Source: Ianthella basta (lineage: Eukaryota > Porifera > Demospongiae > Verongiida > Ianthellidae). Taken from it: a stretch of 64,000 nt of DNA. Position numbers and translations under genes: made by a program. Shown here one piece after another: positions 11,579 through 17,500 of the stretch. The stretch covers positions 2,910,699-2,974,698 of the forward strand of contig OZ025872.1 in NCBI GenBank assembly GCA_964019415.1. Reading direction: 5' to 3'. The first letter of the stretch is position 1; every line of letters begins with the position of its first letter. The notes under the pieces are model-generated. The model saw nothing but the letters and a program-made list of their open reading frames with translations, was not told the origin of the DNA and did no database searches.

Positions 11579-14500
11579 GTAAGCTATGAAGTGTGTTGAT
11601 GATATGACAAGTTACGTACGTTTGTGTTGTTCAGTATCTGATGGTTACCTTACACTTTGGTGCACGTATTTTAACAGTTTTATTCTACCTTTGTAACTCC
11701 CAGTATGTGTAATTCTTTGCATTTAAACCTTAATTTAATTGCTCACTGGCATTGCGTGTCAGTCATCTGCATTTTAGCTAGTCATTCGTTTACAGTGGAA
11801 TCTGTCTAAGACAACCGCGTGTGGGCCAGTTCTAGCTGTTTATAGAGAGGTGGCTGCTATACAGAGGTACGTAGATTGCAATGCTTTACTGTGCTACTTG
11901 GGGCCAAGGTGGCTAGCTGTTTTAGAGAGATGGCTGCCCAACACAGTGACCATCCACTGTAGTTGGAAAGTGCTAGGGATATGTCTAGAGGCTCGAATCT
12001 AAGACATTAATGACGGAAAATCGCCGTGTCTGTATACTATACATGATCCGTCTCTTCCCTCGTCTGACCTGTAGGAGCCTTCAACGCTACAAGGCCAGCA
12101 TTGGAGTGGCGCGGAATGAAGCATGCATATGGCTAACTGTCCGAACGCGCATGTTATATAGGCCCACTGGGACGGTTTAGCGAGCCAGACTATTATTGCG
12201 CAATAGCGGAGGGACCTGGCTGTACGCAAAAGGGATACTGTAGCTAGCTATATTGAATTTGGAGGACAAGAAACCGCACTCGAAGTCCCCATATCTTTAT
12301 TGCTGGTGAACATTCAAGTCACTTCATTACACGTTGATCTGAAGATTTCTCTACTGGTATCATTATTCTTCCAGCTAGTCAGAGCGTGAGTAGCCTACAT
12401 ATCTGTCTTGTTTATCTGCCGTGACCTCAGTTAGAATATTGACGAAAGCTGTATATGATGTGTGCCTGAATGCTTTGATGGTGTATTGTAGCTAGACAAG
12501 TTAAATCAGACTACACGTAGACACACAATAGTACCAGATAGGGGCGGGGACTTCCGGAGTTTCTTTGCTCCTCCTTCGATGGCTCAACTTCTACTGAGCC
12601 TGCGCTAACGCTATCTACATCAGTCAACTGCTAAAAGATAGCACTACATATGCGGCAAGATTTAACTCCGCTGTGCCGTCTTTTGATCGAGCGAGTACTG
12701 GTGGCGCCAAAAACGGTAGGCGGTTGTTAATTCCGGAAATAGTGCATACGCAAAATGATTCCGTAGTAGCTATTAATTTTGATGCCCTTGGTTGTCAGCG
12801 TATCCACTTTTTCTAGAGCTAGAGCAGTCTTTTTCAGTAGATTATAATTAGCTGAGGCAGTTTGGGCGTCGGAGTCGCCGAATTAGTGCGGTGTGTAATG
12901 AGATACGCTTCCTGGCTAGCTACGTCTGTCACTAGTCAAATAATAGCTAGAAAGAAGAGGCGTATAAACCGACGTAGAAGAGCCAAGGTGAGTGGCACAG
13001 AAGTAGCATTATCTACAGAGAGGGACGAGCGGTTAACCTGATTTCCGGAAACCCCTTCCTTTCCAGAAATCTCCGCCCCTACCTTAATCCAATCGCGCGT
13101 AAGGATGGAGGTGGTTGCTTGTCACCGAATTAGTGCGGTGTGTAATGAGATACGCATGTTTGGTGGAAACAAGCAGATTTCATCCTAAACTATTGTCTTG
13201 GCAAAGGCCTGACTGTACCTACCACGTGTGCAAGTGAGTGTCCCAAAGACAAGCATGCTTTCTCTCCTGAGTATACTAGTCTTCCTATTTTGACTATCGT
13301 TCCTCATAGAAATGCTGAATTGTCCCTTTCTCTGATTCAAAGAGCAACAGCTAAAAATGTTAAGTGTACCAGAATAAGTATATACCATCTGGGTTATTCA
13401 GCTCTAGGCTAGCAGGGAATCTATTACTTTGAGATACCATGGTTGATGGGACACCTGTTCTCAGCTGCACGAATGTGAATTGTCACAGTTCTTTGACCAT
13501 TTACAGAGCGCATGAAGCAAACATGGTACACCCTACAGTGCAACTGAAACAAGATGCTGAACACTGTTTGTCTTTCGCACCAAAGGAGCTGATGTATCTG
13601 TTACGCGCATACCTCCATCTACTCAGTAACTGTGTATGCTTACACTAGTCTTGCTTCCAGCCCCTATTTCTCCGTACACATATTATCGCACAATCGAGTA
13701 TTCTACTCACAGCGTTAATTGCACAATATACATATAATAGGGGCTGGTACATGAGACTAGCTTAACACAAGTTTATGTCAATGAGACAACTAATAATTAT
13801 AAGCAAATTAGCTAGTTCAAACGTGGTTTATGTATATTCCTATTAAAGGGTTAACATAATATGTGTACAATCATACGTCGTGGTAGTTACCGAGGGTTTA
13901 TTACGAACCTATGTTATATGATGACATGCAGCACAACTGGAGCACAATCACTGTTCATCTGAGCCAATGTGCCCATTCTATCACTGGGGCCTGTTAGACA
14001 GGTGTACAAACACTGCACACACCTGTGGCACAGAGACCACTATATACCTGTGTGTGTCTATAGGCTGCCAGTTGTCAGAGGAAACCGGTCTTGTAATAAG
14101 CTAGTCTCATGTACAGTATGTAATGTGTACCTGAATGATGAACCACACAAGACTCTCAGAAGGTTATAGTCTATCCTATTTCACAACCTACAGAGCCCAC
14201 TCGGCATACCCTCTCCATACCAGTGCTTATATAGCTATGTAGGGGTTGGTTCACTGTATACTGTGGCAGTGAAGGCATATGTATAGCACACAATTGAAGA
14301 GGTTGAGGTGATTGCAAACATTGTCCACCCTTTTGACATTTTGACTGTATGTGCATGGATATGTAATGATTCAGCAAACTATAAGTCTTAATTGTTCGTT
14401 GTCTCTCTCCTTTCTTTCTGTACAGGTGACATGCCTATTTCAAATGAGCAGTGGCGTGTGGCTGTAGGACTGTGGGTTGCCCGCATTCAGCAGACGCTGA

Positions 14501-17500
14501 TCATCAAAAGAGGAGTGAAGAAGTCACAGCCCAGTCAGGAGGGGACACCTCTGCCACTCAGTCAACCATGCAGCAGAGAGAAGAAATGCATGGTGAAAAA
14601 GAAAGGAAAGAATGCCAGAAATGGATCTGTTGGTGACCCAGCCATCACAAGTGATGAATTCTATGATGGTTTGATTGCTATTGCAGCGATTGTGAGCTCT
14701 TGGGAAGAAATAAGTGCAAAGGTGGCTCATACAGGAATCCTATAGGCCCATTGTTAGAGGTGTTATGGGGAACCAGTTTAAGTGCTCTGGTTGTCATAGC
14801 ACTCCTCCTCCTCCGAAGTGGTGATGTTGAAACTAATCCTGGTCCTGTGGAGAGAGGTGGGTGGTTGTGCTTAGTGAACAGTTTACATGACTCATGCACT
14901 AATTATACTGTAACAGTAGTACAGTGGTACAGGTCATGTTAGCAGTCACTAACACACTGATTCTGTCAGCAGCTAGACTAACTCTTGGACAATATCAGCT
15001 CCTTGCGCCTACCAAGGTATGGAGCTTGTGGGGCTGCTGAGGGCGACCGGGTGAAAAATAGGGTTTGCAATGCTGCGTTTGTAGGGTGGGCATCATAGTA
15101 AGAAATTTTATACCCATCTCAATGTAACTAGGAATGTAGGCACTGTCCTCATGTCAGAGGTGGTTTTGTACACGTCTCTTGTAGCTCAGACAGTAGGTAC
15201 TGTCCTCATTGGAGGGGTGTCCTTATTTCAGAGGTTATTTACACATCTCAATGTACATAGCTGGGACAGTAGGCACTGTCCTCATTAGAGAGGTGTCCTT
15301 GTTTCAGGGTGTCTTTTATATGAGGTTCCATGTAGTGCATGTAATTTGGTTACTATCTACTGAGTGGCTTGTTTGGGGTTCAGAACATTTAGCATTTGGT
15401 GTATTCTCAAGCAAATGTACCACACCACATTTGGTGTGGCCTGTGTAGAAGGGACTCCCATACACAATGGAATGCTGTACAGGAGATGGGTGGGGATTGT
15501 GGGTAACGTAATGTAAACAATGTGGTAAGCCCCTGTCACTGCTGTCCATTGAGGGCTCTGAAAGTCAGCAAAATAATTCTGCCGCTACCTGTACCTGCTA
15601 TCTTGTGATGTAACTGGACCAGATGGTATAATGGTTGGAACTCAGATGGGACCTTAATTGTTCTTGCTAGCTGAACCATCTTCTTATACTTGACCTACCA
15701 ATCTGCCCTTCCTTAGGTGCTCATGCTTTCCTCAACATCAGCTCCAAACCCACATTGGCTGAGCTGGATGAGTTCATAGTGGATCCCATCACTGACGGGT
15801 GGGAACAAGTGGTGCTTCACCTTGGGGTAGAATCCTTTGTTATAGACATAGCGAAAAGGGATAACCCTGGTCAATCTAAGGAGGCATGTCGAGGAGTCCT
15901 CAGCAGTTGGCTGGATGACAAGCCCGGGACAGGTGTGGCTGAAAGGACTTGGCACTCTGTTTTAAAGGCACTGGAGACCAGTGGGCACAGCCAGCTAGGA
16001 GATAAACTGAAGAGAGAGCAATTTGGTGAGAGTTCTGAAGGACCAGTGCTGAGCTATCCTCTCCACCTGGCTGTGTGTGTGGCTGGGTTATGGAGGGGCT
16101 GTTTGTTGTTATCACTGTAGAGCTGTGAATGTCCACTCTTCAGGCAGAGCACTATTAAAGTTTAAAGCTAACCTAAATGATTAACTGTATGTCACGAAGG
16201 TGACACATGTATACGTACCTAAGCTATGGGGAGCTAGCTGGTAGTCAGTGGTAGGCACTTTATGTTCATTTATTACATCATCACACAGTTCATTTTCTGG
16301 TTACTTGTCCCATGAACGTAAGGAAATCAAGCCAATCAATCAAAATCACCTACTGTACGTCATCTGGTACAGCAATTTTGATTGGTCAGTTTAATTTCCT
16401 GTTTTATGTTCATGGGACAAACAGCCTGAAATCAGATCAGCTCCTTGCGCCTACCGAGGTATGGAGCTTGTGGGGCTGTTGAGGGTGACCGGGTGAAAGA
16501 TAGGGTTTGCAATGTACGTAGCTGAGACAGTTTGCACTGTCCTCATTAGAGAGGTGTGCTTGTATCAGGATGTCTTTTATATGAGGTTCCATGTAGTGCA
16601 TGTAGTTTGGTTACTATCTACTGAGTGGCTTGTTTGGGGTTCAGAACATTTAGCATTTGGTGTATTCTCAAGCACATATACCACACCACATTTGGTGTGG
16701 CCTGTGTAGAAGGGACTCCCATACACAATGGAATGCTGTGTGCACACAGGAGATGGGTGGGGATTGTGGGTAACGTAATGTAAACAATGTGGTAAGCCCC
16801 TGTCACTGCTGTCCATTGAGGGCTCTGAAAGTCAGCAAAATAATTCTGCCACTACCTGTACCTGCTATCTTGTGATGTGACTGGACCAGGTATTAGACCA
16901 TGATATAATGGTTGGAACTCAGATGGGACCTTAATTGTTCTTGCTAGTTGTACCATCTTCCTATTTATTGACCTACCAATCTGCCCTTCCTTAGGTGCTC
17001 ATGTTTTTCTCAACATCAGCTCCAAGCCCACATTGACTGAGCTAGATGAGTTCATAGTGGATCCCATCACTGACGGGTGGAAACAAGTGGTGCTTCACCT
17101 TGGGGTGGAATCCTTTGTTGTAGTGAAAGGGGATAACCCTGGTCAATCTAAGGAGGCATGTCGAGGAGTCCTCAACAGTTGGCTGGATGACAAGCCTGGT
17201 ACAGGTGTGATTGAGAGGACTTGGCACTCTGTTCTAAAGGCACTGGAGACCGGTGGGCACAGGCAGCTAGCAGAAAAACTGAAGAGAGAGCAATTTGGTG
17301 AGAGTTCTGAAGGACCAGTGCTGAGCTATCCTCTCCACCTGGTTGTTTGTGTGGCTGGGTTATGGAGGGGTTATTTGTTGATATCACTGTAGAGCTGTGA
17401 ATGTCCACTCCTCAGGCAGAGCACTATTAAAGTTTAACGCTAACCTAAAAGGATTCACTGTATGTCATGAAGGTGACACATGTATACCTGAACTATGGGG

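Follow-up and report, generated by a model that had tools for sequence, protein, structure and literature searches.

A conserved 2A (StopGo) exon as the probable leader of an expanded death-fold/NLR-type gene family in the sponge Ianthella basta

Results

A conserved exon with a 2A motif lies upstream of DEATH and CARD-like exons

The stretch of DNA analyzed here (the window) comprises 64,000 nucleotides of the sponge Ianthella basta and corresponds to C5:2910699-2974698 (contig OZ025872.1) of a 209 Mb genome. On its forward strand lies an exon (14426-14856) that encodes a 2A/StopGo motif and is followed by exons for DEATH and CARD-like modules. This 2A leader exon is flanked by AG (ctgtacag/GTGAC at 14426) and GT (GAGAGAG/gtgggt at 14856), starts and ends in phase 1, and contains an ATG at 14431 as well as the core GDVETNPGP at 14820-14846, with a predicted break between the final G and P. 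An original prediction from the same sequence had described this motif, a hydrophobic run ahead of it and an exon end that matches the phase of the next DEATH exon, and had placed the motif within a spliced death-fold gene. Our analysis agrees with these points: both borders and the phase hold for the 2A exon and for the next DEATH exon (DEATH exon 1; 15717-16025, forward strand, phase 1-1), the run reads ALVVIALLLLRSG, and DEATH and then CARD-like exons follow downstream. DEATH exon 1 narrowly missed the Pfam cut-off of 22.6 bits (Death, E 2.9e-4, 21.3 bits).

The 2A/StopGo motif of the window is real and far exceeds chance. Peptides of this kind, which are known best from viruses, let a ribosome release one product and then continue with another. 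The sequence encoding DVETNPGP (14823-14846, forward strand) was the only match to a degenerate pattern in the window, and this pattern was found in none of 100 dinucleotide shuffles. Across the genome, DVExNPGP was present at 307 sites and GAYRTNGARNNNAAYCCNGGNCCN, in which the second position may be V, I or M, at 360 sites, with no site for either reversed pattern. Most of the sequences displayed have the upstream context LLLRSG, and the window and C2 sequences have R11, L13 and L14 like the active sea urchin SpNLR2A6, in which changes at these three positions are reported to lower skipping (Roulston et al. 2016, PMC4981915). A further context type, LLFLSG, is without R11.

A second, short leader exon (L078; MLSP...LLLLAGDVEANPGP) has an AG upstream and a phase 1 donor (G/GTAAGG). 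With 29 amino acids ahead of the Pro, it is similar in length and place to the 26-residue NLR leaders of sea urchins. With an E limit of 0.01, searching with this type gave 62 matches (all 139 candidates scored), of which 36 share at least 79 per cent identity. For the hydrophobic run before the motif, the best 15-residue Kyte-Doolittle mean reached 2.3 and 2.7 for two of the long leaders and 1.6 for the short leader.

The long leader exon is repeated many times in the genome. A DNA search with 14426-14866 gave at least 40 matches with 83-100 per cent identity, including the window's own (40 of 105 candidates scored), and at the protein level the exon matched 109 places (all 136 candidates scored), of which 83 span at least 140 of 146 residues. 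After merging of duplicates, 61 loci yielded 39 distinct copies including that of the window. The ATG, the AG before the exon, the GT after it and a purine at -3 are each present in all 39, and 28 of 29 paralogous units keep one frame throughout, between MPISNEQW (or a near variant) and the 2A motif. In total, 36 of the 39 copies are open to the motif, and in 33 the canonical core shares the frame of the ATG, although one of these 33 (L067) has a TGA three codons ahead of the core. The six copies without an in-frame canonical core are that of the window and L034, which are both frameshifted, and four with NPDP, DVKINAGP, NPSP or DAEANPGP. Because the residue preceding the Met varies (D in 35 copies, N in two, V in two) and the Met does not, and because -3 is always a purine, we suggest that the ATG is the start codon. 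The 2A exon probably serves a death-fold/NLR family as its first coding exon, or 2A leader. DEATH and CARD-like exons follow the closest relative of the 2A unit (C5:5711677, 93 per cent), and about 7 kb upstream of this relative lies an ORF with a terminal stop that is DEATH-like by eye and had no Pfam hit. The leader itself had no significant match in Pfam, and its AlphaFold model was poor (pLDDT 55), with helices at residues 5-27, 75-93, 107-113 and 117-130.

To compare constraint along the exon, dN/dS was calculated according to Nei and Gojobori for 35 copies, with the window copy excluded, L034 and L067 dropped for their stops and L047 missed by the pattern used. Within C2, a set picked by its MER ending and including a C11 copy, dN/dS was 0.05 for the 2A stretch and 0.36 for the whole exon; against the distant copy L076, the values for the 2A stretch were 0.15 and 0.17. 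Judged by these ratios, the 2A codons are under purifying selection, which is strong in C2. The N-terminal block of the leader is constrained as well (dN/dS 0.16-0.43), which suggests that the leader is a protein with its own use. Among 73 related database proteins, 63 keep the core; one of the proteins is the window's own and the rest are ENA records, maybe from the same species.

Probable leader exons precede DEATH, CARD and NACHT modules

The neighborhood of the leader exons was examined among the matches listed for each module, which comprise 150 of 829 candidates for DEATH (67 used in the count), 150 of 614 for CARD and 81 of 442 for NACHT, together with partial 2A lists; all counts below refer to these matches. 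A DEATH match on the same strand was found within 4 kb downstream of the leader exon in 16 of 22 cases on C2, 12 of 17 on C4 beyond 8.4 Mb and 4 of 9 elsewhere. Same-strand DEATH matches upstream numbered none on C2, four on C4 beyond 8.4 Mb, one elsewhere and none on C4 at 4.0-8.4 Mb, and no DEATH match on the opposite strand was present within 4 kb downstream in any of the four groups. On C2, a DEATH exon exceeded the cut-off of 22.6 bits (PF00531, E 3.9e-5, 24.1 bits), and an ORF behind a 2A copy (C2:1234408-1236006) encodes a NACHT domain (PF05729, E 6.5e-18).

With this ORF as query, all 26 NACHT ORFs listed on C2 have, by position, a 2A of either leader type within 15 kb upstream, and 12 of them have a further 2A at most 15 kb downstream, which probably belongs to the following unit of the array. 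With a limit of 8 kb, the counts were 18/26 upstream and 0/26 downstream. Of 54 2A-led stretches on C2, 53 are compatible with the order 2A, DEATH, CARD, NACHT and one breaks it; 12 of the 54 show no module among the matches listed, and one CARD match has no assigned 2A. Among the matches listed, no NACHT lies near the window copy.

Further arrays and neighbors were seen in the genome. C4:4.07-8.31 Mb holds 35 leader exons in an array, nearly full in length but more distant (58-64 per cent identity), and the one member sequenced encodes GDIETNPGP. At least 102 NACHT matches exceed the Pfam cut-off (102 of 469 candidates scored, all of which passed), with arrays on C4, C5, C8, C10, C17 and C18 among others. 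At L039-L041 (C2:1221000-1248000, minus strand), an ORF of 1499 residues that by eye resembles TPR plus CHAT follows the NACHT ORF on its strand.

The motif, the common exon borders and phases, the order of modules on the chromosomes and purifying selection on the 2A codons are observed, and we consider it likely, with reasonable confidence, that this exon of the window represents one copy of a StopGo (2A) first coding exon leading a lineage-expanded death-fold/NLR-type family. Several points weigh against this reading. On C4 at 4.0-8.4 Mb, 4 of 35 leader exons have a DEATH match within 4 kb downstream, and in the member sequenced L replaces R at position 11. Of the 13 NACHT ORFs on C4 below 8.4 Mb, one has a 2A within 15 kb (six within 25 kb), and because this one lies at 3.66 Mb, the same gene model does not account for the group at 4.0-8.4 Mb. 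Outside C2 and this part of C4, a 2A is found within 15 kb upstream of 24 of 43 NACHT ORFs, including the C4 ORF at 3.66 Mb, and within 15 kb downstream of two. Leucine-rich repeats were not found by Pfam in four pieces at or after the C2 NACHT ORF, and the C2 locus is partly masked, with about 2.5 kb between 2A and NACHT. Selection within the C4/C1 copies is weaker (dN/dS 0.29 for the 2A stretch and 0.47 for the whole exon), and the value for the 2A stretch between C2 and C4/C1 is not low (0.60). Absences of neighboring modules are soft, since the DEATH, CARD, NACHT and 2A matches listed are partial.

A frameshift in the window copy and alternative explanations

The original prediction had assumed that 14633-14745 is removed as an intron and that a CARD-2A-DEATH message gives rise to a CARD product and a DEATH-CARD-coiled-coil product. 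That the window copy works in this way is, in our view, highly improbable. The phases do fit (CARD exon donor ACAG/GTAAGC), and the proposed splice restores an open frame in the window copy. However, the donor GT is kept in 19 and the acceptor AG in 11 of the 38 other copies, and the mean identity of the copies to the window is 0.842 inside the supposed intron and 0.854 and 0.844 on its flanks. Because the paralogs (28/29) read through this stretch in one frame and the window is without one base, which 37 of the 38 other distinct copies have at 14698-14699, 14633-14745 represents exon sequence, and the intron was rejected. As a result of the missing base, the frame of the window ATG stops after 104 residues (open at 14431-14742, stop at 14743-14745, forward strand), leaving the 2A core out of the ATG frame. 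The window copy is frameshifted and probably dead, and would probably yield only a truncated leader of 104 residues, so that the functional product proposed for it is not supported. Private rescue by cryptic splicing, or an assembly error at the missing base, may apply to this copy. The CARD exon proposed to precede the 2A exon, of which the second half of the pair lies at 11413-11580 (forward strand), occurs 22 times in the genome (all 23 candidates scored), and only the occurrence in the window lies near a 2A exon; in both window copies, the frame continues to PTGKL and a stop. Despite the fitting phases, a CARD-2A gene was rejected on this linkage in 1/22 copies, and we judge the CARD-like pair not to be part of the 2A gene. 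Since the joined pair had no hit in Pfam, its CARD label is only the name given in the original prediction.

Two further explanations concern the family as a whole. An alternative in which the exon was captured from a non-LTR retrotransposon and the motif is a relic without present function is unlikely. All eight other 2A sites inspected on C1 (L001-L008) belong, by eye, to ORFs of the non-LTR element type, five of which carry what we take to be HLNVRSL/LSETW-like endonuclease motifs, and an origin of the leader exon from such an element is possible. A relic is nevertheless difficult to reconcile with the exon-intron structure, the conserved splice sites, the tandem NACHT arrays and the selection on the 2A codons. 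Quite unlikely, too, is a motif that serves chiefly as a signal or anchor sequence with weak or absent skipping. The hydrophobic run ahead of the motif would suit such a role, and sea urchin 2A leaders, including that of SpNLR2A6, are described as signal sequences when unskipped (PMC4981915). Yet G, D, E and NPGP rank with the best conserved positions of the exon in sets selected for an intact core, which a signal sequence by itself would not require, and the run of the long leader lies about 115 residues from its start.

2A and DEATH exons alternate at nine loci

Nine loci show 2A and DEATH matches in alternation along a single strand (2A-DEATH-2A and longer), and internal hybrid exons with a DEATH start and a 2A end occur among them. 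The loci lie on C4 near 8.60, 8.63, 8.75, 8.93, 8.98, 9.03, 12.24 and 12.30 Mb and on C21 near 3.83 Mb. A NACHT ORF of the family follows 2.8-11.2 kb past the last 2A at eight of them. The order at L044 (C4:12304100-12313000) is 2A (NPDP), DEATH, a hybrid exon, a CARD-like exon and DEATH, with the hybrid exon combining a DEATH start with an intact 2A end; where checked, the exon borders of this locus are AG/GT and the phase is 1. It is possible, though doubtful, that these loci encode cellular StopGo polyproteins of innate immunity. Against function at these loci, five of nine cores sequenced are intact and four degenerate (NPDP, NPSP, DVKINAGP and DLETNPGP), and another exon (C4:8980381) carries a stop, whereas 21 of 23 C2 copies are intact and open.

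Further features of the window

Downstream of the 2A exon, the window contains three more DEATH exons, all on the forward strand: DEATH exon 2 (16995-17297; Pfam Death E 0.011, 16.3 bits, below the cut-off), DEATH exon 3 (18447-18755), a tandem duplicate of DEATH exon 1, and DEATH exon 4 (19725-20027), a tandem duplicate of DEATH exon 2. The duplicated blocks (15503-17640 and 18233-20370) are 99.58 per cent identical over 2138 bases, and the duplication of the pair is therefore very recent. The CARD-like exon (stretch matched 24715-24987, forward strand) had no significant hit in Pfam. The model of its C5 paralog P0075 (pLDDT 78) resembles a six-helix CARD fold, with the Apaf-1 CARD as best match (probability 1.00, TM 0.75-0.79 by target length, E 0.09), and the fold search gave no match at E of 0.001 or below.

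Elements of the reverse transcriptase type, which we presume to be Penelope-like, are located at 20524-23342 (forward strand; RVT_1, E 7.2e-12), between the DEATH and CARD-like exons, and at 26967-28228 (reverse strand), the latter with a GIY-YIG match below the cut-off. Three long ORFs (5721-6518, 25342-26358 and 56498-57532) look related by eye and had no significant match in Pfam; each lies in a repeated gene block with coiled-coil-like or CARD-like exons. ORFs of coiled-coil-like appearance (by eye) also trail the second copy of this neighboring gene family at 56498-57532, suggesting that they are members of that family and not of the proposed DEATH-CARD-coiled-coil product.

Discussion

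For intact copies of the leader exon, we infer that translation begins at the conserved ATG and produces a basic leader, some 139 residues in length, which terminates in the hydrophobic run and the 2A peptide. By analogy to SpNLR2A6, the Gly-Pro bond would be skipped, so that the leader would end in NPG and a second protein would start with Pro and carry DEATH, CARD and NACHT. Where skipping fails, the leader would stay fused, and its hydrophobic run may direct or anchor the receptor at membranes, as has been shown for leaders of the sea urchin. A single transcript across the modules and membrane targeting would both be part of this scheme.

The closest parallel is SpNLR2A of Strongylocentrotus purpuratus, with which the family shares an N-terminal 2A on NLRs, D(V/I)ExNPGP, the leucine run and R11/L13/L14. 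The sea urchin parallel drawn in the original prediction is the right one and extends further than claimed, as the exon resembles the leader of an NLR-type family. In one count, about 35 per cent (85/241) of sea urchin NLR proteins have an N-terminal 2A (PMC4981915). In contrast to SpNLR2A, the sponge leader is about 139 aa long, with a conserved N-terminal block and a basic cluster instead of a 26-aa signal peptide, is encoded by a spliced phase 1-1 exon, and at some loci is repeated internally with DEATH exons; moreover, some share of the 360 motif sites of this genome lies in retrotransposons.

Odon and colleagues reportedly described 2A in APE-type non-LTR retrotransposons in 2013. Such elements, with an L-rich run and SGDVExNPGP or CGDVExNPGP in common with the family, seem by eye to be present in this genome. 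The leader, unlike these, is a host-type exon with splice sites and with death-fold/NACHT exons downstream. Among viral L-rich StopGo sequences, motifs 2 and 6 likewise have an L-rich run ending in SG, with G at p11 and D at p12 (Li et al. 2026, PMC12846837), whereas cellular genes are concerned here. Motif 6, the one tested of the L-rich motifs in which (A/S/C)G precedes D at p12, was active in vitro, and the same paper describes cellular use of StopGo as rare (PMC12846837). NLRC/NLRD of the sponge Dysidea avara share the large NACHT expansion and the N-terminal CARD or DEATH, and the paper describing them has zero mentions of '2A-like' or 'ribosome skipping' (PMC12909245).

In the CC-licensed PMC literature, screened by title and start of the abstract, no 2A was found in a sponge, NLR or death-domain setting like that described here. 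As far as our searches show, three features are new within the literature searched: the long constrained leader, the expansion together with modules for CARD and DEATH, and the loci at which 2A and DEATH exons alternate. A survey of eukaryotic and viral 2A by Rao and colleagues is said to have appeared in Cell Reports in 2025, and its cellular list may include relatives of the leader family.

If the alternating loci do encode polyproteins, a single message would give rise to the basic leader, at least one free DEATH adaptor and the receptor in a fixed ratio, and decay of the 2A (NPDP, NPSP, DLE) would turn separation into fusion, copy by copy. For the leader family as a whole, one genome combines 360 motif sites, some of them in retrotransposons, with tandem arrays of NACHT genes behind 2A exons, the 2A codons of which are strongly constrained in the main array. 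The purpose of 2A in cellular genes thereby becomes testable, be it dual targeting, a co-produced leader protein or the release of a death-fold adaptor in a fixed ratio, with decayed copies next to intact ones as natural mutants.

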